Shown here piece after piece: positions 10,991-56,357 of a stretch of DNA of 64,000 bases; position 1 is the stretch's first letter, and each line of letters starts with the position of its first letter. The DNA lies in contig NZ_CP030028.1 in NCBI RefSeq assembly GCF_003586445.1, positions 4,964,826 to 5,028,825 on the forward strand. The letters run 5' to 3'. Made by a program: the position numbers and the translations under genes. The notes under the pieces were generated by a model. That model was given only the letters and a program-made list of their open reading frames with translations, searched no databases and had not been told where the DNA came from. Source of the stretch: Bacillus sp. Y1. GTDB taxonomy: Bacteria; Bacillota; Bacilli; Bacillales; Cytobacillaceae.

Positions 10991-11026
10991 TAAATAATCC
11001 CTTCATCTCGAATTAGACAAAGGGAT
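10991..11026 (-). terminator. Terminator of the parM-parR operon
   Basis: On the - strand, ATCCCTTTGTCT and AGATGAAGGGAT pair with two wobbles around AATTCG, then TATTTATTTT. It lies 9 nt after the parR stop. Confidence 0.75.
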
Positions 11027-11034
11027 CAGATATT

Positions 11035-11619
11035 CTATTTATTCATTTTTGAAAGAAAATCACCTAAAAGGCTATCAAGGTCATTCTCGTGGTCTTGGTC
11101 CTCGTCTGTTGTTTCTGGTTCTTCCTGGCTGATACTTTCCCAACTAAAGGCATCCAGATCGTCTTCTGACGCCTCTAGCTCTTTTGAAACTGCTATTTCA
11201 GGGATAGGCTCAATGAAATGCTCATCAAGATTAGAATCCTCCTCCTGTAAATATAGTGCTTCAGAGATATCTAGAGCATTACTATTTAAGGATGCGAGCA
11301 ATGCAGTTGCTCGCACAGGATCTGTTAAAAGCTGGTACATGATACTTCCAAGCAAAGCCTCTGAATGCTCATGCTTTAACCAGTTTCGTTGGGATTTGCT
11401 TAATTTATGAGGAATGGGAATCGTGATTGTTTCCTGCTCCCTGGACGAAGACTGGCTAACTCCCTGCATGACAAATTCAGCTATTTTACTAGAAAAATTT
11501 CTTCTTTCGGTTTCCTTCAACTTTTGTAAATACTTTAATAAATGATCTGGCGTATCAGATGGAATTCGAAAGGAGATTGCTTGGCCTCTCTTCACTTCAT
11601 TAGAAGCTGATTTTTTCAT
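11035..11619 (-). CDS. ParR-like centromere-binding adaptor of the ParM system
   Basis: It probably binds the hexamer array upstream of parM and links it to ParM filaments. The N-terminal 70 residues are basic and contain AISFRIPSDTPDHLLKYLQ plus a Ser/Lys-rich helix, consistent with a ribbon-helix-helix-type binder. A middle helical part follows (about 75-120). Residues about 125-180 are strongly acidic and disordered-looking. The last 15 residues (DLDSLLGDFLSKMNK) form an amphipathic helix. Known ParR proteins have this layout: DNA-binding head, linker, C-terminal ParM-contacting helix. It starts 8 nt after the parM stop with an AGGTGAT site, so coupled translation is likely. Sequence identity to a named family was not established; the role rests on context and layout. 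Confidence 0.6.
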   Translation of the reverse strand: MKKSASNEVKRGQAISFRIPSDTPDHLLKYLQKLKETERRNFSSKIAEFVMQGVSQSSSREQETITIPIPHKLSKSQRNWLKHEHSEALLGSIMYQLLTDPVRATALLASLNSNALDISEALYLQEEDSNLDEHFIEPIPEIAVSKELEASEDDLDAFSWESISQEEPETTDEDQDHENDLDSLLGDFLSKMNK

Positions 11620-11627
11620 ATCATCAC

Positions 11628-12803
11628 CTATGAATTCTTAACTGGTTCTTGAGCTTTCTTTGGCTTTTCAACTTTCCTTACATAATCCGTAATTAGCTTG
11701 TAATAGGCATTGGCCATCATCCAAATACTCTCTTTTTCATCTTCAAAAAATTCAATATTGTAACCATCTAAATTATTATTTAGTGTTTTAATATAATCCT
11801 TTAATACATGTGCACCGCCACCAACAAAATAACAGATTTCCGTTTGAGAGTTCTTTTGCCAAATATTCCTCAACAAACGGTATTGTTTTTTAGCTAACTC
11901 CAGTAAGATACGATCCGTTATGTCATGAACACTCGTACGACTTCCTTTCACCATAATATGATTACGATCATTTTTTCTGGTGATAATTTCTACGACATCA
12001 CGACGGCTATCTAACTCCACCCCATGTTTTGTTCTTATTTCTTCTCTTATGGCTTCTAGAGATTCAGATACACCTAGATTGAACCCTTGTGCCTTATCAT
12101 CGTCGACATTACGATTTTTAATCACTGCAATATCTGTGGAAAGTCCTCCGATGTCCTGAATAAGAATTCTTTTATCTATTAAATCCTTATTAATAATCTT
12201 TAGCTGGGTATCCATCACAAGATTAATATAAGCCGCAAAACCCTCTGGATATATTTTCACTTCATTAAATTTAATATTTACTTTTAACCCTTGATACTTA
12301 GGTGTAACAAGAAATTCTACTTGGTGGACAGAACCGACTAATTTCGAACGGTACCCCGCATCCTTTCCTTCCTTTACCTCACGTAGTGGAAGACCTGTAC
12401 CAAGCGTGTAATTCGCATCAATCACTTGTTTTGATCTCGGAAAAATACCCGTATTCTCTTCTTTCACAGCATCCAATGCCAAGGTCGCAAACAGCATGAC
12501 CAATGTTTGATCTTCTTCTGATTTACTACTTCCCGGGTCCAATTCTGTGGCATTGCTGCTTTTCGTTGCAAGGTTTCCTACTCGATAAATGGCATTATTG
12601 TCTTTTAAGGCAGGAGAATGAACCTTAATATGAATGCCATCAAAGGGATTTTTACTATCCAGTTCCTCTATTCCAATGACCGGCCGATCTTCTGTATCCC
12701 TGGCAACAATATTAGGAATATTAATTTCATATTCCATCTCCCCAAAGATTGCTTTAATCGAGTCATTTCCAACATCTACTGCTGCAATTCTAGAGTTTGA
12801 CAT
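11628..12803 (-). CDS. Actin-like ATPase of the ParM/StbA (ALP) family
   Basis: A cytoskeletal ATPase that in plasmids polymerises to push sister DNA molecules apart. All five actin-fold signatures are visible in order: phosphate-1 AVDVGNDSIKAIFG (7-20), connect-1 IYPEGFAAYINL (about 190), phosphate-2 LIQDIGGLSTDIAV (about 215), adenosine CYFVGGGAHVL (about 325) and connect-2 SIWMMANAYYKL (about 362). The 391-aa length is a little above plasmid ParM. ATG 12803 has a modest AAGGGATG site. The gene is flanked by an iteron array upstream and a ParR-like gene downstream, the canonical parC-parM-parR order. No replication gene, integrase or transposase is nearby, so it sits in the chromosome as a free-standing unit. 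Confidence 0.85.
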   Translation of the reverse strand: MSNSRIAAVDVGNDSIKAIFGEMEYEINIPNIVARDTEDRPVIGIEELDSKNPFDGIHIKVHSPALKDNNAIYRVGNLATKSSNATELDPGSSKSEEDQTLVMLFATLALDAVKEENTGIFPRSKQVIDANYTLGTGLPLREVKEGKDAGYRSKLVGSVHQVEFLVTPKYQGLKVNIKFNEVKIYPEGFAAYINLVMDTQLKIINKDLIDKRILIQDIGGLSTDIAVIKNRNVDDDKAQGFNLGVSESLEAIREEIRTKHGVELDSRRDVVEIITRKNDRNHIMVKGSRTSVHDITDRILLELAKKQYRLLRNIWQKNSQTEICYFVGGGAHVLKDYIKTLNNNLDGYNIEFFEDEKESIWMMANAYYKLITDYVRKVEKPKKAQEPVKNS

Positions 12804-12933
12804 AATAGATCATCCCTTCTCATTTAATAGATTTATAGCTCCTAGTTGCTAATCATTTTTATGTATCTTTCTATTAAAGGGTATAGGAGATTACTAGATT
12901 ATTCAATGAACCTTACGAAAAAGAAATAAAATT

Positions 12934-13108
12934 GTAAACCTGTAAACACCTTGTAAACAAAGGGCTATTTGTAAACATAATTGTAAACAACCACTACAAA
13001 TCCGTATACACATGATTAAAACGGGATGTATACATATTTGTATACGTGTAAACACAAATGTATACAAGTTGTTTACATTAAGTAAACATGTATACGACTT
13101 TTGTAAAC
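12934..13108. repeat. Array of 14 GTAWAC hexamers: candidate parC centromere and parM operator
   Basis: GTAAAC (or its complement GTTTAC) occurs at 12934, 12942, 12953, 12971, 12983, 13048, 13071, 13082 and 13103. GTATAC occurs at 13004, 13028, 13040, 13060 and 13090. The context is usually TTGTAAACA or TGTATACA. Most start-to-start distances are 8, 11-13 or 18-24 bp, so many copies lie on one DNA face. The array sits immediately upstream of the ParM gene, where plasmid parC sites sit, and probably also covers its promoter. Binding by the ParR-like protein is inferred. Confidence 0.8.
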
Positions 13109-13142: not shown

Positions 13143-13170
13143 TAAAAAGGTCCTACTTTAAGTAAGACCT
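13143..13170 (-). terminator. Terminator of the DUF3231-like gene
   Basis: On the - strand AGGTCTTAC-TTAAA-GTAGGACCT is followed by TTTTT. It insulates the hexamer array from the upstream gene. Confidence 0.85.
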
Positions 13171-13185
13171 AATCACATTTTGAAG

Positions 13186-13713
13186 TTATGATTTGTAATA
13201 GGGAGGAATGCGCAGCCATTCCTTTTGCTCTAGGTATTGTTTTACTTGTAGCCCTGAAAGTGTCTTTTTCATAATAATCTTTGAAAAAAGTAACCCAACG
13301 TCTGCCCGTATGGACTCCGTAAGGCCTCTTGCAGCGTATGCGACACCACTTGCTAAGTTATATGACATTAAGTTAGCTAACTCTTCATCATTTAATTTGG
13401 CACCCTCAGGTATATCACGAAAGTCCCCTACTGGTTTCTCAGGTGTACTTTTTGGGATTGGGACTCCTTCTTTAACTAAGAATTCTCTTATTTCATCTCT
13501 AATTGGAATATGTAAATTATCCTTTATATCTAAGATGATTCTTTTAAGTTCCTCATCCTGAGCAAGGTTGTACCCAATTTCCTGATTACGCAACGTAGTT
13601 TCCGTACCTAATAAGAAAAACCATAAATTCGTGACTTCCATTACATTTAAAGGCTTTTTTTCACCGTCTAAAAATGGTTCGAATGTGTCATGAATCATCT
13701 CAAAAAGATTCAT
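13186..13713 (-). CDS. Single-repeat DUF3231-like protein
   Basis: A 175-aa soluble protein resembling one repeat of the DUF3231 family, whose usual members have about 330 aa in two repeats. Mostly helical; features include an N-terminal NVMEVTNLWFFLLGTETTLRNQE helix region and the NDEELANLMSYNLASGVAYAARGLTESIR segment typical of the family, which is thought to have a ferritin-like four-helix fold. No biochemical function is known to me. The ATG has a GGAGGGG site at 7 nt. It is monocistronic, with its own terminator. Confidence 0.65.
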   Translation of the reverse strand: MNLFEMIHDTFEPFLDGEKKPLNVMEVTNLWFFLLGTETTLRNQEIGYNLAQDEELKRIILDIKDNLHIPIRDEIREFLVKEGVPIPKSTPEKPVGDFRDIPEGAKLNDEELANLMSYNLASGVAYAARGLTESIRADVGLLFSKIIMKKTLSGLQVKQYLEQKEWLRIPPYYKS

Positions 13714-13777
13714 CTGATAACCCCTCCAGGCATGTAATTCCTATAGTAGTATCATGACCATTCATATAGTAATCATA

Positions 13778-15478
13778 CTAATTGAAATATTTTTCAAATA
13801 GTTTTTCAGCTGTACGTGTTGCTAATGCCTGAGTGGTAAGAGTGGGGTTTACTCCACCCAAACCGTTATAATGAACACTATTATCAGCGATAAATAACTG
13901 TTTTACCTGGTAAGCTTCACAATTAGAATCAACTACAAACCCCATTCTCATTGTACTTTCCAAATGAATCATGATTCCTGCTGGCCAGTTAGATGAGATC
14001 ATTTGTTTCGCCCCAGCTTTATGCAAAATATGAATAGCCATTTTCATTAATTCTTTTCTATTTTTTATAGATTTTTTTGTAGGAATATAGCTTAGGATAG
14101 GTATAGGACCATGTTCATCACTAATCGTAGGATGGAGGTTCACTCCATTTCTATGATCAACCTCATCGTCTGTAATGATTAGTATATTCAACGTTTTTTT
14201 ATAATTTAACATTAAATCTTTTAATTTGCTTCCAACAATTTGATTATGAAATTCCCAGTTCGACTGTTCCTTTTGATAGATACTCCACCCAGATTGACTA
14301 ATTCCATAGGAAAGAGAAGCTGTTAGTCCTGGGCTCATACCGGCCGTTTGCATCGAACCTAAGCCAGGAAAATCGAGTCTTGCACCACATGTATGTCCAA
14401 TAAAAGGATTGATATCCGGCTCGCCTAAGATAGACATAAGGTCTTTTTCATTAAAGATTCCAGTTACCCAGTCCATATAATGGTTCGTTAACCCTTTTCC
14501 GACCCATGGATTTTGTGGGAGATTAGAATTTAACCAAAGTCGCGGGCTCTCTATGCTACCTCCAGCAAGAACAACCACCTTTGCTCTTAGTTCTTCCTCT
14601 TCTCCTGTCCATGTATCCCTAATACGGACTCCAGTCGCCTGTAACTCTCGTGAACAACTGGTATCTGTTAAGATTTTTATTGTAAATGAATTAGGTCTAA
14701 TCGTGACATTACCCGTACTCAAAGCCAAAGGGATGTAACTAACTGTTGTTGATCTCTTTGCAACCTTATCTACTGAAGGTCCATGTGGGCAGCCATTGAT
14801 ACAATGTCCACAAAGGGTACATCCTTCCATCCTCGATAATTGTTCAAGTGAAACATTTACATTGTTAAGATTTTTATTTATAGGTAAGATCGCATTGGGC
14901 TGTGGTCGATAGCCCGGACTTGTAACATTTAAGGTGGAATTAAGCTGCCAGCCCGCTCTTTTTGCTCCGAAATAAAATAATTCTTCCTTTGCGGTTGTTG
15001 GTGCAAAGGAAACCGGTAATGTGGCTTCTACCTTTTCATAATAAGGAATGAGTTCTCGATAGGAAAGAGGCCATACTTCGTCAATAGCTGATGGAAAAGC
15101 ACGAGGAGAATTAGCTGTATAATGCTGTGTGGACCCTCCCACACCCGCACTTTGCCAAATAATTTGCTTATGTGGTGATAAGCGAACCCATGGTGCCCGC
15201 TCTCTATTTGCTGGTCCCCATCGAAATCTACCTGTAACCAAATTATTCATGTTATCTTCATACTTGTTCATTTGTTGCCTATAAAGAGATATATCTAAAT
15301 CATTTTTATCGGAACTTTCTTTTGCACAAGAATAAAGATTTGGATTTGGCCACTTTTGATTTCCATACCATGGGCCTGCTTCTATAATTAACACCTTTAA
15401 ACCCTTTTCCCCAAGCTCTCTTGCTATAACTGCTCCACCACCTCCTGCACCAATGACAATTACATCTGGATTAGACAT
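13778..15478 (-). CDS. GMC-family FAD-dependent oxidoreductase with a four-cysteine cluster motif
   Basis: A flavoprotein oxidising an alcohol or sugar; the substrate is unknown. The N-terminal ADP-binding motif VIVIGAGGGGAVIA is at about 6-19. VGGSTQHYTANS near 124 fits the GMC FAD-binding signature, and the C-terminal HYNGLGGVNPTLTTQALA near 540 carries the catalytic-region residues. Near residue 210 lies EGCTLCGHCINGCPHG, a CxxCxxCxxxCP pattern typical of an Fe-S cluster and unusual for plain GMC enzymes. The 566-aa protein starts at ATG 15478 (GGGGGA at 7-8 nt), overlapping the end of the upstream partner gene. No signal peptide is seen. It probably forms a complex with that partner. Confidence 0.85.
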   Translation of the reverse strand: MSNPDVIVIGAGGGGAVIARELGEKGLKVLIIEAGPWYGNQKWPNPNLYSCAKESSDKNDLDISLYRQQMNKYEDNMNNLVTGRFRWGPANRERAPWVRLSPHKQIIWQSAGVGGSTQHYTANSPRAFPSAIDEVWPLSYRELIPYYEKVEATLPVSFAPTTAKEELFYFGAKRAGWQLNSTLNVTSPGYRPQPNAILPINKNLNNVNVSLEQLSRMEGCTLCGHCINGCPHGPSVDKVAKRSTTVSYIPLALSTGNVTIRPNSFTIKILTDTSCSRELQATGVRIRDTWTGEEEELRAKVVVLAGGSIESPRLWLNSNLPQNPWVGKGLTNHYMDWVTGIFNEKDLMSILGEPDINPFIGHTCGARLDFPGLGSMQTAGMSPGLTASLSYGISQSGWSIYQKEQSNWEFHNQIVGSKLKDLMLNYKKTLNILIITDDEVDHRNGVNLHPTISDEHGPIPILSYIPTKKSIKNRKELMKMAIHILHKAGAKQMISSNWPAGIMIHLESTMRMGFVVDSNCEAYQVKQLFIADNSVHYNGLGGVNPTLTTQALATRTAEKLFEKYFN

Positions 15479-16085
15479 GAAGATTTCCCCCTTTTTTCGG
15501 ATCACCTAATAAAAAACCACGAAGATTCCGATATCCAAAAGCTGGTCCTGGGTATTTTGTTTGAATCCACCCAACTGGAAAATACTCGATACGTTTATAC
15601 TCATGTCGGTTAAATCGAGTTGAGCCATATCCAGTCCATTCCGAATAATAGCCCAAAAACGTTAGCTGGGTTATAGTATTCTTCATACTTTGTGTTAAAC
15701 CTGGATTGTTGGTAAAAGGTTCTGGTAAGCTCTCCAAAGGTACTTCTAATCTTTCTAGCAAGTTGAGTGCCATTAGTCTCTCATTACGTGAAAGAGTAGA
15801 GAATACCCCTTTCCTAGGAAATGCCCATGTATGGTAAAAATACACTTTTCTTTCTATGTACAATAGTTGAATAGCAGCAATGTCTAATAAGTTAGCTGTC
15901 TGTTTTGACAATGGGATCGTTACTCCTTGATTTATAGAAGAGGGCAAAGTCTGATCCAAAACTGCTATAACATACCCATAAACCACTTCATCCATTGGAG
16001 AAGCCTGAAGAATGGCGTCCACCGCAGCTTGGATGGTTATCCTCGTATGAGCATCAAGTATTTCACTGGTTAAAAGTTTTATCAT
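15471..16085 (-). CDS. Gluconate 2-dehydrogenase subunit 3-like protein
   Basis: A 204-aa small-subunit partner of the GMC enzyme encoded just downstream. In three-subunit sugar dehydrogenases this gamma subunit supports folding and export of the FAD subunit. The usual features of the family are seen: an N-terminal AAVDAILQASPMDE stretch, central TLSRNERLMALNLLE and FTNNPG segments and a C-terminal FLGYYSEWTGYG motif. It lacks the twin-arginine signal often found in proteobacterial versions. ATG 16085 has AGGAGGG at 6 nt; the frame extends to TTG 16106 without support. It overlaps the GMC start by 8 nt. Confidence 0.75.
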   Translation of the reverse strand: MIKLLTSEILDAHTRITIQAAVDAILQASPMDEVVYGYVIAVLDQTLPSSINQGVTIPLSKQTANLLDIAAIQLLYIERKVYFYHTWAFPRKGVFSTLSRNERLMALNLLERLEVPLESLPEPFTNNPGLTQSMKNTITQLTFLGYYSEWTGYGSTRFNRHEYKRIEYFPVGWIQTKYPGPAFGYRNLRGFLLGDPKKGGNLHV

Positions 16086-16171
16086 GTCCTTCCCTCCTAC
16101 AAACAAAAATCCCCATCCTTTAATTGTATTTGGAAATTTGAAAGGATAGACTACTTAATTAGAGGAAGCAA

Positions 16172-32246: not shown

Positions 32247-34078
32247 GTCCAGTCATCCTCCTCATTTCGATCATAAGGGAGGGTGAATGAGACTGTTGTC
32301 CCCTTCCCTTCCACGCTCTCCGCCCAAATCTCTCCTCCATGGGCTTCTACCATTTCTTTTGCGATGGCTAGTCCTAGACCTGTTCCACCAAGCTTTCTTG
32401 TTCTTGCTTTATCCACTCGATAAAATCGTTCAAAAATTTGCTGAAGATTTTCTTTTGGAATGCCCATCCCCTGATCACTGACATTAACTACAATATGATC
32501 TTCCTTTTCCTCCACTTTAAACGTGATTTTTCCACCCTGTGGAGAATACTTCATAGCATTTGAAATGATATTATCAAGAACTTGAGTAAGCTTGTCTGCA
32601 TCTCCCTCAACAAAGGCAGCATGATCTAATAGGTTTCGTTCAAAAGCAGTATTTTCGTCCTTAATAATCTCAAAACGATCAATAATTCGATTGAAGAAAT
32701 CTATAAAATTAAACCATTCCTTCTTAAGGCGATAATCCTTGCTATCCATCTTGGAAAGCTGAAGCAAATCATTAACAAGACGTATCATACGCTCCGTTTC
32801 TGTTTGCGTAACACTTAAAAAGTTTGGAGCGATTTCCTCGTCCTTCCATGCACCATCTGATAAAGCTTCTAAGTAGCTTCTCATTGTGGTTAGAGGTGTC
32901 CGCAACTCGTGTGACACATTGGCAACAAATTCTCGTCTCTCTAAGTCAATTTTTTCTTGTTCTGTAATATCATGAAGAACCGTTATTAGTCCATTTACAA
33001 AACCTGTTTCCTTTTGAATGACTGAAAAATTCGCCCGTAGAATAAGAGGTTTTGTCGCTGTGCTATAGTCCAAAATAAGCGATTCTTTCTCTACAAGTAA
33101 GTCTTCAAACGAATAGTCTTCTTCTAAGCCTAATAAAGACACAATGGAGCTAGATAATATTGTTTCACGTGAAACACTTAAAAGCATTGCCGCAGGTTCA
33201 TTGATAAGGATTACTCGCCCTTTTCTATCGGTAGCAACTACACCATCTGTCATATAGGAGAGAACAGACGATAACTTTCGACGTTCTCCTTCAGTCGTTG
33301 CATGTGCCTCTTGCAACTTTTTTGTAAGGTTATTAAAAGTAATGGCCAACTGACCGATCTCATCATATCCGTATACTTTTACCTTTCGAGAGAAATTTCC
33401 TTTAGCCATTGCCTGTGCCTGCTTTCGCATATCAGAAATCGGCCTTGTAATCGTTTGTGCTAGTAAAATTCCAAGTACTGCTGTAATCAATAATGCAATA
33501 CCAGTCCCTGTCGCAAGAATATTATTAATGGTTTTCATTTGTGAATACACATTTTCTTTCTTCGCTACCAAGTAAATAACTCCGGTAATATCATCATCGG
33601 AACGAACAGGTTTTACTAATATCCAAATCCGTCCTTTCTGTCGATCTATTTGAGTGACATCCTCTCCTTCATCAGAGGATGTAGCAATGACACGCCTAAT
33701 TAATGTATCGGTAGATCTTTGACCTACAATTCCTTGATTATAAGGATCTGATGTGCCAATTATTTTTTGAGTACTAGCCTCTATTAAACGAACCTCTGTT
33801 ATATCTGTCGTATTTAAATCAGACAGTATGTTCTTAACAGCCTCTTCGATAGTTGGCCCTTCATCATCTGGATTACGTTCCTTGCCTAGCTCTTCCCCTA
33901 AGTAATAGGCTAAAAGATTAACTCTCTCTTCAATAGAGGTTTCAAAATTTCGTAATAAAGTATTTTCAAGCTGTCTAACAAAATAAACACCGATGATTTG
34001 CATCGCAATTAATATTAACAATACGTAAATCATTACAAATTTAAGATGAATAGATCGAAAGAAACCAACCTTTTTCAT
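32243..34078 (-). CDS. walK: Essential cell-wall sensor kinase WalK
   Basis: A 611-aa membrane histidine kinase controlling cell-wall homeostasis. Two membrane segments (about 12-32 and 184-206) flank an extracytoplasmic PAS-like domain. HAMP (about 206-258) and a cytoplasmic PAS (about 265-370) follow. The phospho-acceptor is His390 in VANVSHELRTP. The ATPase domain shows the N box NIISNAMKYSP, then DQGMGIP and GGTGLGLAI. Start is 7 nt after the walR stop. The coding sequence also contains a parS site at 33161. Confidence 0.97.
   Translation of the reverse strand: MKKVGFFRSIHLKFVMIYVLLILIAMQIIGVYFVRQLENTLLRNFETSIEERVNLLAYYLGEELGKERNPDDEGPTIEEAVKNILSDLNTTDITEVRLIEASTQKIIGTSDPYNQGIVGQRSTDTLIRRVIATSSDEGEDVTQIDRQKGRIWILVKPVRSDDDITGVIYLVAKKENVYSQMKTINNILATGTGIALLITAVLGILLAQTITRPISDMRKQAQAMAKGNFSRKVKVYGYDEIGQLAITFNNLTKKLQEAHATTEGERRKLSSVLSYMTDGVVATDRKGRVILINEPAAMLLSVSRETILSSSIVSLLGLEEDYSFEDLLVEKESLILDYSTATKPLILRANFSVIQKETGFVNGLITVLHDITEQEKIDLERREFVANVSHELRTPLTTMRSYLEALSDGAWKDEEIAPNFLSVTQTETERMIRLVNDLLQLSKMDSKDYRLKKEWFNFIDFFNRIIDRFEIIKDENTAFERNLLDHAAFVEGDADKLTQVLDNIISNAMKYSPQGGKITFKVEEKEDHIVVNVSDQGMGIPKENLQQIFERFYRVDKARTRKLGGTGLGLAIAKEMVEAHGGEIWAESVEGKGTTVSFTLPYDRNEEDDWT
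33161..33176. promoter_or_regulatory. parS site inside walK
   Basis: TGTTTCACGTGAAACA, a perfect 16-bp palindrome matching the Spo0J-binding consensus. Confidence 0.9.
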
Positions 34079-53100: not shown

Positions 53101-53958
53101 TTAGGATTCCTGGTTATTATTTAATAACTCGAGAATTCTTTCTAAATCATCTTTTGAGAAAAATTCTATTTCAATTTTCCCTTTATTTTTAGACTCTTTA
53201 ATATTTACAGTTGTGCCAAATCTCTCACGCAAAAAGCCTTCGCGTTCTTTAATGAAAACATTTTTCTCTGGCTTTGGCTTCTTTGTTTCACGTGGAACAT
53301 TTTCATTCAACTGTTGAATAAGTTGTTCTAACTGGCGAACATTCAAGCCTTCTTTCATCGTTTTCTCAGCAATAAGAGGTAACTTTTCTTTTTTTCTAAG
53401 GCCAAGCAAGGCACGACCATGCCCCATCGAAATCTTTCCATCTGAGATAAGCTGTTGGATTTTTGGTGGTAGAGTTAACAAACGAACGAGATTTGCAATA
53501 TGTGGCCGACTCTTCCCTAGTCTTTTAGCCAATTGCTCCTGTGTTAATGAGAGCTTTTCCATTAGGAGCTGATAGGCTGCCGCTTCTTCTATCGGTGTCA
53601 AATCTTCCCTTTGTAAGTTCTCAAGGACGGCAAGTTCCATCATTTGTTGTTCGGATAACTCACGAATGACAACAGGAACTTTTTCGAGCCCCGCTTCTTT
53701 CGCTGCTCGAAAGCGTCTTTCACCAACAACAATATCATAGCCCTTTATACTTTTTCTAACGATTATAGGCTGTAAAATTCCATGCTCAATAATTGATTGC
53801 TTTAGCTCTTCAATTGCCTCTTGGGTAAAGATCTTTCTCGGCTGATAAGGATTAGGTCGTATTTCTTTCAAACTAACATCTGTAATTGATTCCTGTTTGT
53901 TTGGCTCATCTATGTTTGCAAAGAACGCATTTAATCCTTTTCCGAGTCCTTTAGCCAT
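53101..53958 (-). CDS. spo0J: Chromosome-partitioning protein ParB/Spo0J
   Basis: A 285-aa CTPase clamp that loads at parS and spreads, helping load SMC and segregate origins. N-terminal KGLGKGLNAFF contacts Soj. The CTP-binding ParB domain has ENLQREDLTPIEEA; the parS-reading helix-turn-helix is LTQEQLAKRLGKSRPHIANLVRLL (near 145). A C-terminal dimer domain follows. The gene itself contains a parS-type site at 53284. ATG 53958 overlaps the soj end by 8 nt. Confidence 0.96.
   Translation of the reverse strand: MAKGLGKGLNAFFANIDEPNKQESITDVSLKEIRPNPYQPRKIFTQEAIEELKQSIIEHGILQPIIVRKSIKGYDIVVGERRFRAAKEAGLEKVPVVIRELSEQQMMELAVLENLQREDLTPIEEAAAYQLLMEKLSLTQEQLAKRLGKSRPHIANLVRLLTLPPKIQQLISDGKISMGHGRALLGLRKKEKLPLIAEKTMKEGLNVRQLEQLIQQLNENVPRETKKPKPEKNVFIKEREGFLRERFGTTVNIKESKNKGKIEIEFFSKDDLERILELLNNNQES
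53284..53299. promoter_or_regulatory. parS site inside spo0J
   Basis: TGTTTCACGTGGAACA, one base from a perfect palindrome and in the position of the known spo0J parS of B. subtilis. Confidence 0.9.
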
Positions 53959-54712
53959 GCGAAACCACTTCCTTTGCCAAATCTAAATAGACTTCTGCAC
54001 CTCTAGATTTTGGATCGTAAATGATAATCGGCTCCCCATGACTCGGTGCTTCACTTAAGCGGATATTTCGGGGAATAATGGTTTTGTATACTTTATCTTG
54101 AAAATACTTCTTTACTTCTTCAATAACCTGAAGTCCAAGATTTGTTCTGGCATCTAGCATCGTGAGAAGGACACCTTCGATTTTTAGATCTTGGTTTAAA
54201 TGCTTCTGGACGAGTCGGACCGTATTTAAAAGTTGACTTAACCCCTCAAGTGCATAAAATTCGCACTGAACAGGAATAAGAACAGCATCTGAGGCAGTTA
54301 ACGCATTTAAGGTTAATAAACCTAAGGATGGTGGACAGTCGATAATGACATAATCGTAGGATCCTTTTACTTCCTCAAGTGCCCTTTTTAATCTCACTTC
54401 TCTTGATATGGTTGGAACAAGTTCAATTTCTGCACCTGCTAACTGAATTGTAGCGGGGATAGCATATAGGTTTTCAACGGATGTAGGCATGATAACTTCC
54501 TTTGCCTCAACGTCATCAACTAATACATCATATATACATTGCTCCACGTCAGCTTTTTCAATACCAACACCACTTGTGGCATTTCCTTGTGGATCAACAT
54601 CGACTAGCAATACTTTTTTCCCTATATATGCTAAGCAGGCACCTAGGTTTACAGAAGTTGTTGTTTTACCAACTCCTCCTTTTTGATTCGCAATGGCAAT
54701 AACTTTCCCCAA
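53951..54712 (-). CDS. soj: Chromosome-partitioning ATPase ParA/Soj
   Basis: A 253-aa Walker-type ATPase controlling DnaA activity and acting with Spo0J. The deviant Walker A KGGVGKTT is at about 11-18, Walker A' VDVDPQGNATSG near 40 and Walker B VIIDCPPSLG near 120. TTG 54712 (AGGTG at 6 nt) gives MGKVIAIANQ, matching Soj start and length; GTG 54721 is an alternative. Confidence 0.96.
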   Translation of the reverse strand: MGKVIAIANQKGGVGKTTTSVNLGACLAYIGKKVLLVDVDPQGNATSGVGIEKADVEQCIYDVLVDDVEAKEVIMPTSVENLYAIPATIQLAGAEIELVPTISREVRLKRALEEVKGSYDYVIIDCPPSLGLLTLNALTASDAVLIPVQCEFYALEGLSQLLNTVRLVQKHLNQDLKIEGVLLTMLDARTNLGLQVIEEVKKYFQDKVYKTIIPRNIRLSEAPSHGEPIIIYDPKSRGAEVYLDLAKEVVSHG

Positions 54713-55271
54713 TGGTGTCACCTACCTTTATCTTCATAAATAACATTTGAATTCAAAACTTTCAAAAAGACAATCACGTATTCTATTCTATCATGAAAAA
54801 GATACGAGAATCATTTTTTTTATTTCCCTAGGGCTTTAATTGAAAAAATAACAAAAAAGAGGTACTTGGTAAAGTTCGATTTCAGTTCCGGGTGGACGCT
54901 TTCCGCGGGCGGGGCCGAGCCGCTTCCCTCGCTACGCTCAGTCCAGGGTCTCGACTATCCCGCTTTTCCCGCAGGAGTCGCCACCCTCCACTCCAATCTA
55001 ATAAAGTATATGCTTACTTTTGCTGCCATGAATTTAAAGAAACTAGAAATTTGGACTTGGCTAGGTGCTTGATGATAACTCTAAAAGGGGGTTAAAACAT
55101 AGTTATAAGAGTATACCTGCTGAGTGGAGCGGAGGGTGCTTGACTCCTGGGGGAATCAGCGGGACAGGTGAGACCCCGCAAGAGCGGTAGCGATGAGGAG
55201 GCTCACCGCCCACCCCCCGGAAAGCAAGCACCCGGAGCGGAAATCAGCCTTTTCTCTACCATCCAAACAAA
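54713..55271. repeat. soj-noc gap with two GC-rich inverted copies of a Bacillus repeat
   Basis: Copy 1 is at 54879-54994 (+), copy 2 at 55126-55244 (-). Read in one direction both follow the order TTCCGGGTG, GCTTTCCG, GAGCC, GCTAC, GGGTCTC, TCCCGC, CAGGAGTC, CACCCTCC, CTCC. They are clearly more GC-rich than the flanks and can fold back on each other. Short + frames across them are not genes. Confidence 0.8.
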
Positions 55272-55307
55272 AAAATGACAAAAGGCAGCGAGAAGCTACC
55301 TTTTGTC
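55272..55307 (-). terminator. Terminator of noc
   Basis: GACAAAAGGTAGC / GCTGCCTTTTGTC around TTCTC, then ATTTTTTTG on the - strand. A second stem (AGAGAAGCT/AGCTTCTCT) lies nearer the gene. Confidence 0.88.
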
Positions 55308-55347
55308 GACAATCTGAGAGAAGCTCATCAAAGCTTCTCTTAATCTA

Positions 55348-56217
55348 TTATTTCTTTTTAGGTATTTTAATTGTTATTTGGTAGAAGTCATCAAACTCTT
55401 CCTCTTCAGAGTTTAAGTTGATGCCACTATCTGAAACCATTGACAGAGATTGACGAATGGTATTAACAGCAATTCTTACATCTTTACTAAAAGCCTTCCG
55501 CTTCGGTTTTGGCTTTTCAGATATTTCTGCTAGAAGTTTGGCCACTCGATCTTCTGTTTGTTTCACATTTAAGTTTTTCTCAATAATTTCTTCTAATAAT
55601 TTTATTTGCTTCTCTGCATCTTTCAAAGGAATGAGAGATCTCGCATGTCTTTCGGTAATGGATTTATTTAATAGTGCTTCTTGTACCTCTTGCGGCAGCT
55701 TTAATAGGCGGAGCTTATTAGCTACGGTCGATTGCCCCTTCCCTAACCTTTGCGCAAGAGCTTCTTGAGTTAAATTGTGTAGTTCCAATAATTTCCCGTA
55801 GGCTATTGCCTCTTCAATTGGTGACAGTTCTTCTCTTTGAAGGTTTTCTATTAATGCGACAGAAGCCGTTTCTGTATCATTCATATTTTTCACTATGGCA
55901 GGGACTTCATCCCAACCAAGCTTTTTCATCGCTCTCCATCTTCGCTCACCAGCGATAATTTCAAACGTACCTTCTTCAAATTCTCTTACAACAATTGGCT
56001 GGATGATCCCGTGTATGTGAATCGTCCGTGAGAGTTCTTCAATTTTGTCCTCATCAAATACCGTCCTTGGTTGGAAGCGATTCGGTACAATTGAATCAAT
56101 TGGTATTTTTTTTATCTCTTCATGATCTGCTTCGGTTACTACTTCAACCTGTTCTTCCGTCTCAGCTTGTCCCTCTTTTTCGCCTAGGCCAAAAAAGCGT
56201 GTGAAAGTCTGCTTCAT
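55348..56217 (-). CDS. noc: Nucleoid occlusion protein Noc
   Basis: A 289-aa ParB paralogue that blocks division over the nucleoid. It begins [14 protein letters not shown], the amphipathic membrane-binding helix of Noc. The ParB domain has RFQPRTVF and GERRWRAM; the helix-turn-helix [26 protein letters not shown] (near 155) reads Noc-binding sites. ATG 56217 matches B. subtilis Noc; a GTG one codon upstream is also possible. Confidence 0.95.
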
Positions 56218-56357
56218 CACCCTGCACCACCTTTACGAAACTCCCTATTAATGTATTCTATAAAAAAAATCAAGTTCCTGCCCAAACATGCAATGATTGA
56301 TTATTTTATCCTACATACCTACTAAAATTATGCCATAAAATGAGCTAAAATGTAACT

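Follow-up and report, generated by a model that had tools for sequence, protein, structure and literature searches.

A putative chromosomal ParCMR cassette to the left of oriC in Bacillus sp. Y1 and related genera

We analysed the final 64 kb (the window) of the single 5,028,825-bp contig of Bacillus sp. Y1, in which dnaA is cut by the contig start. Roughly 52 kb from dnaA, in agreement with the initial annotation's estimate of about 50 kb from oriC, lies a compact cassette with the following parts, shown together with the ordinary partition genes nearer the origin:

11628–12803, minus strand: parM, encoding a 391-aa actin-like ATPase of Alp7A/ParM type, assigned by Pfam and homology
11035–11619, minus strand: parR, encoding a 194-aa putative array-binding adaptor
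12934–13108, no strand assigned: parC-like array of 14 hexamers (GTAAAC, GTATAC or GTTTAC) upstream of parM
12815–12930, minus strand: leader from array to parM, with a TTGA(A/C) element found by eye at 12906–12901
10995–11028, minus strand: terminator-like hairpin just 3' of parR, with 14 pairs and a T-rich tail
13148–13170, minus strand: terminator-like hairpin in the interval separating the DUF3231 gene from the array; it bounds the cassette on this side
53101–56220, minus strand: ordinary ParABS/Noc genes, namely spo0J (53101–53958), soj (53951–54721) and noc (55348–56220)

Downstream of parM, parR follows after a gap of 8 bp. Terminator-like hairpins occur at three sites in the stretch compared with 0.9 expected from shuffles. 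The TTGA(A/C) element, which was noticed by eye in many of 33 leaders, is a possible promoter −35 element; a promoter consensus scan of the leader found none on the minus strand here. No rep, integrase or transposase gene was detected among the main ORFs scanned between window positions 6 and 27572 (a set that does not include every small ORF), as had been proposed. Adjoining the cassette at 13186–16106 are genes for a DUF3231 protein, a GMC-type oxidoreductase and a 211-aa protein without a Pfam match.

The ParM sequence matches Pfam families Alp7A_like_C (1e-39) and ALP_N (3.5e-11), with the C-terminal domain at 28.9 bits against a cut-off of 27.4, as well as a PHROG partition protein (3.5e-42), while R1 ParM matches it at E = 8e-4. 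Five stretches (DVGNDSxK, PEG, DIGGLSTDIAV, GGG and WMMxNAYYKL), which we take to be the actin motifs, are invariant in 35 sequences that are each at least 87% identical to the window ParM. Together with the Pfam scores above cut-off, this bears out the earlier call of an actin-like ParM with five motif stretches; judged by its sequence, the protein is an actin-fold ATPase of the ParM/Alp class that type II partition employs. An AlphaFold2 model (pLDDT 46) was too weak to judge a closed beta-barrel subdomain. Among the best 80 of 446 encoding stretches, the nearest named records by ParM come from Robertmurraya korlensis, and the genera represented include Robertmurraya, Neobacillus, Ureibacillus, Lysinibacillus, Cytobacillus, Mesobacillus and Lederbergia.

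The 194-aa ParR matched no Pfam family and no solved-structure relative was found, but it is homologous to the parM-adjacent gene in 10 of 10 related plasmids with an annotated gene there (25–41% identity over 63–98 residues). Its N-terminal part is conserved, its acidic linker is variable and its tail, LLGDFLxKMNK, is conserved, an architecture consistent with the ParR-like gene first described. A low-confidence AlphaFold2 model (pLDDT 54) places helices at residues 25–37 and 44–55 after a strand-like stretch, which would fit a ribbon-helix-helix fold. ParR may join a ribbon-helix-helix-like N-terminus, through the acidic linker, to a C-terminal helix. A tyrosine-recombinase identity was dropped, given a match of E = 2.7e-4 and 20.6 bits against a cut-off of 220. 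At one of the 110 loci introduced below (L013), the scripted parR start codon was placed late in the gene.

Start-to-start spacings of the array hexamers are 8, 11–13, 18, 21 and 24 bp. The 14 hexamers fall within 175 bp, compared with 51 across the remaining 64 kb (nominal Poisson P ~1e-23), and the array seen in the first reading is therefore real. A three-unit pattern applied to the entire 5.03-Mb genome gave 15 matches, all of them within this single array, compared with one for the reversed control.

We then examined the cassette across 101 genomes, comprising its own and 100 relatives. ParM matches were found in 65, of which 59 contained a match at 79–100% identity, with all other matches at 45% or below. 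The 42 genomes without a close ortholog indicate that the cassette is dispensable at the order level. A class-level draw of 398 genomes yielded 33 matches at 1e-50 (24 at 77–100% identity and 9 at 37–44%), and neither sample (101 or 398 genomes) contained any match between 45% and 77%. The orthologous family covers 32 genera of the relatives sample, and Alp7A_like_C matched none of 14 control genomes, B. subtilis included. At all 110 loci of a first compilation (L001–L030 and L031–L110, two sets that overlap in genomes), a parR match lies downstream beside parM and 6–18 strict hexamers lie no more than 600 bp upstream. Likewise, parR is present at all 119 loci of a second compilation (the loci of L031–L110 and L119–L158 longer than 7 kb, with the shorter L072 dropped and some genomes represented twice), and 12 further loci carry parR and 6–12 units by a looser pattern. 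It is almost certain that these loci form an intact chromosomal ParMR family, which is widespread and orthologous and not a lone or decayed plasmid relic. In a few genomes, additional actin-like genes were observed: a ParM relative of 41–45% identity on a contig other than the cassette's (G032:C4, G048:C2, G010:C100 and G049:C7; 4 of the 59) and, in several cassette genomes, a second actin-like gene of ~400 aa and ~27–31% identity (for example, G031:C1:2497175, G009:C1:2078777 and G033:C16:2558747). Weaker ALP matches (27–30%) in G031, G009, G033 and G048 lie far from dnaA.

Across the 119 loci, the array unit has a consensus close to TGTNNACA, with commonest spacings of 8, 11 and 12 bp. Strict units number 2–18 (median 11) in the 420 bp upstream of parM, the best 200 bp holds at least five units by the looser pattern, and the densest 200-bp cluster of the locus lies within 500 bp upstream of parM in 118 of 119 cases. 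At the median, arrays end ~124 bp upstream of parM, with units coming within 29–65 bp of it in some loci. The operon is thus accompanied by centromere-like iterated repeats, as in type II systems. A similar pattern, run genome-wide in 17 genomes, matched in 13, adjoining parM save for strays at one place each in G041, G054, G001, G269 and G349; the remaining four (G028, G066, G069 and G474) gave zero matches. The reversed control gave 0–16 matches per genome and exceeded the pattern in G048, G050 and the four zero-match genomes, so that clustering is what counts and not the number of matches. By the looser pattern, G474 has seven units upstream of parM. One species shows a natural duplication of the array: at L057 it is displaced and present in two copies ~3.2 kb apart (~3783–3653 and 559–399 bp upstream of parM), separated by ORFs that look like transposase fragments.

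The position of the cassette relative to oriC is strongly conserved. We located dnaA in all 59 cassette genomes and formed a position rule on the 36 in which parM and dnaA share a contig: 35 have the cassette to the left, all 36 have it on the opposite strand and 33 have it within 150 kb (median, 68 kb). This rule was then tried on 17 genomes from the 398-genome draw, of which 12 share a contig; all 12 are left and on the opposite strand at 31–281 kb, 10 of them within 150 kb. Taken together, 47 of the 48 genomes with both genes on one contig have the cassette left of oriC; its strand is opposite to that of dnaA in all 48, and the distance is within 150 kb in 43. Among 15 genomes taken as one large contig, 14 have it on the left, no more than 302 kb away. 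In the remaining one, G023 (+765 kb), the scaffold is gapped 24–34 kb left of dnaA (G023:C1:5125042-5135672) and spoIIE is 2.9 Mb away from dnaA, compared with ~70–82 kb, by eye, in other single-contig genomes. In G018, which is outside the 48, the cassette is off the 3.05-Mb dnaA scaffold, which is interrupted by a gap 43 kb to the left of that gene (G018:C1:2990469). In our judgement, both exceptions reflect assembly order. As contig sharing favours short distances, the unplaced genomes (23 of 59 and 5 of 17) matter; if left and opposite in them too, the cassette would be at least ~358 kb away in G197, 286 kb in G456 and 227 kb in G465.

This placement is maintained in the absence of local synteny. 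At 115 loci with more than 9 kb, considering up to 6 kb on each side, the parM and parR families are present in all 115 and the next family in only 21. The window's own neighbours DUF3231, GMC and iadA each occur at 3 of 119 loci, which belong to the window's own genus; the DUF3231, GMC and 211-aa group stands beside the cassette only in these loci. A natRK-parMR-DUF3231 synteny, suggested at the outset, thus did not hold up, as natRK is found in none of the three loci with DUF3231 near parM. We also followed two control neighbours, counting only genomes of other genera in which the control and dnaA are on one contig, although these are two controls only and the counts are small. The proB neighbour (at least 60% identity) was within 300 kb left of the origin in none of 8 genomes, with one 179 kb to the right, while the PGDH-like neighbour (at least 55%) was within 300 kb left in 3 of 7, which indicates that some of the zone holds its position.

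Within the window, Soj, Spo0J and Noc lie 8–11 kb from the oriC end. Noc scores above its family cut-off, whereas Spo0J and Soj match the ParB and ParA families and are named by operon order. There are parS-like 16-mers at 33161, 44628 and 53284; two are perfect and one, with a single mismatch, is inside the spo0J gene. These results agree with the initial placement of Soj/Spo0J/parS about 10 kb from oriC, and the central description given there was right: a type II cassette on the chromosome, close to an origin already equipped with this system.

Substitution patterns indicate purifying selection, with dN/dS of 0.014–0.052 for parM and 0.034–0.222 for parR across nine congeneric pairs (a tenth was saturated). 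Over 53 genomes, the mean distance is 0.152 for ParM compared with 0.226 for DnaN, 0.235 for RecF and 0.083 for the part of DnaA used. Distances of parM correlate with those of origin genes at a Mantel r of 0.56, compared with 0.77–0.93 for core genes among themselves, and of 23 well-supported parM splits, the core tree contains 12, whereas 10 clash with one that it supports. AU tests, which were picked after the trees were seen, gave P values of 0.042 and 0.024 when run on parM; run on the core set, they gave 5e-49 and 0.036. Most of these are borderline. The partial disagreement between trees is a hint of transfer between lineages, and we read the history of parM as mainly vertical descent with some transfer.

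A search of 72,556 plasmid records revealed 74 ParM matches, all below 60% identity, with a best of 42.8% among the 40 of 74 matches listed. Among the closest known systems are ParM plasmids of the Alp7A type from Bacillus, Peribacillus and Paenibacillus (for example, pBM69 of B. methanolicus), which share the parM-parR order, an upstream array and a homologous ParR N-terminus. However, plasmid ParR proteins are 133–153 aa and 9 of 10 have short acidic tails (for example, FDDDDD), whereas the chromosomal proteins are 191–221 aa and end in LLGDFLxKMNK. Plasmid arrays are also short, with GCATAC, GGATAC or GTATAC units and 0–5 loose-core matches in 11 loci (none in L220), and mostly sit on the promoter, in contrast to the longer arrays of the chromosomal family (median, 11 units). 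From these sequence differences, we read the chromosomal family as a derived, specialized form. Type II systems are borne by plasmids or other replicons with their own replication genes, whereas this cassette is on a 5.03-Mb contig with dnaA; given also that no rep gene was found among the ORFs scanned and no plasmid match reached 60%, it is a chromosomal variant and not a plasmid system. Two points raised initially, comparison with chromosomal and plasmid sets and the possibility of an integrated plasmid, are thereby addressed, with orthologs in 59 of 101 genomes and no sign of a second replicon in the ORFs scanned. A phage origin was rejected, since just 3 of 50,697 phage records matched, and these partially, as was an anti-phage or anti-plasmid defence system, with no PADLOC match.

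Chromosome-encoded ParMs have already been published: sections of PMC12270681, which also summarize the plasmid ParCMR mechanism, describe cParMR in Desulfitobacterium hafniense, Clostridium botulinum, Moorella and Bacillus tropicus, with two chromosomal ParMs that polymerize and a function left open. The present family resembles these in having a ParM-type gene and an adjacent ParR-like gene on the chromosome, conserved within a lineage; C. botulinum additionally has parC, and several of the published cases are conserved within a genus (PMC12270681). It differs, as far as those sections go, in being one orthologous family across 32 genera with an origin-left position, since none of their cases is linked to oriC, a word found a single time in the main text, among the references (PMC12270681). 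This comparison, B. tropicus included, is by description only. We found no report of an origin-linked ParCMR in Bacilli in the open-licence literature.

Considering these results together, the best reading is a domesticated, intact chromosomal ParCMR system (type II, actin-like), kin to an Alp7A-like plasmid branch, that probably acts in cis on the origin region. We give this a probability of about 0.6 on the sequence data, with action on the origin as our best inference. In plasmid ParCMR systems, ParR bound to the array captures ParM filaments. By analogy, ParR dimers would bind the TGTNNACA array left of oriC, and the array-ParR complex could then capture ParM-ATP filaments through the conserved ParR C-terminal helix. 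Filaments growing between two sister arrays, or between an array and the pole, would separate or anchor newly copied origin regions beside Soj/Spo0J/SMC. Of the three roles proposed initially, an aid to the origin fits best, because 47 of 48 genomes retain the position while the close neighbours vary. Against action on the origin, the cassette is dispensable at the order level, the parM and origin-gene trees agree only in part, ParABS is also present, and proximity could instead serve gene dosage or be inherited inertia.

Inertia would apply if the cassette were a plasmid-derived module without a chromosomal job, sitting in an accessory zone outside the conserved origin block (beyond rlmH/htrA) after one ancient insertion and slow rearrangement. 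Neighbour turnover in this zone is indeed high, the PGDH-like neighbour likewise lies close to the origin in 3 of 7 testable genomes, and no close ortholog exists in 42 of 101 genomes; but a jobless module would hardly show a parM dN/dS of 0.014–0.052, a ParM changing more slowly than DnaN and RecF (0.152 versus 0.226 and 0.235) or retention of parM, parR and array at every examined locus, and the proB neighbour has not stayed near-left of the origin in any of 8 genomes. We therefore consider this explanation unlikely. The same low dN/dS and the retention of parR and array lead us to reject the word 'remnant' in the initial proposal of a domesticated plasmid remnant, while its other half, origin from a plasmid system, fits.

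Gene dosage would be the reason for proximity if ParMR had a job other than DNA segregation, such as cell shape or another cargo, with the place near oriC giving early or high expression and the array being an autoregulatory operator only. The short plasmid arrays are operator-like in mostly overlapping the promoter, units come close to parM in some chromosomal loci, and the function of cParMs is left open in the sections of PMC12270681 that treat them. Yet the chromosomal arrays are longer and typically end well upstream of parM (median, ~124 bp), and dosage should be indifferent to the side of oriC, making this reading quite improbable. The last of the initial proposals, an anti-plasmid incompatibility decoy in which the chromosomal array and ParR would titrate incoming plasmids with a similar ParCMR or cause them to be mispartitioned, has in its favour that the plasmid units GCATAC, GGATAC and GTATAC resemble the chromosomal ones. 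Only 4 of 59 genomes hold both the cassette and a 41–45% relative, however, no defence-library match was obtained with PADLOC, and the origin-left position is left unexplained, as a decoy would not need an origin-proximal place; we regard it as very improbable.

More broadly, a large part of the Bacilli may have a second, actin-driven machine for segregation or origin anchoring beside ParABS, with its own centromere ~30–300 kb left of oriC, a claim to which we assign somewhat less than an even chance. That centromere zone corresponds to the chromosomal segment pulled poleward by B. subtilis during sporulation: passages of PMC4949633 place B. subtilis RacA sites mainly within 250 kb left of oriC, and centre the DNA first trapped in the prespore slightly left of oriC. 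A plasmid-type actin machine left of the origin in many spore formers suggests the moving or anchoring of a chromosome, not of a plasmid, and could explain how origins are positioned in spore formers apart from B. subtilis. A chromosomal role would be the first demonstrated for any type II system, and the family would be a case of a plasmid motor turned host motor. An intact array kept by the origin while close neighbours change makes that role directly testable.

Both Soj/Spo0J/parS and RacA act on the origin region, as proposed here for the cassette, and neither is actin-like; RacA-like genes and ParABS can coexist with it. Using what is presumably the RacA profile (header PRK13182), we found RacA-like matches in 50 of 59 genomes with the cassette and in 25 of the 42 others. 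All of these score below the curated cut-off, as does the match in B. subtilis, and six unlisted negatives were taken by elimination. Given this co-occurrence, replacement of RacA by the cassette is unsupported. SpoIIE is present in all 101 genomes, with and without the cassette alike.
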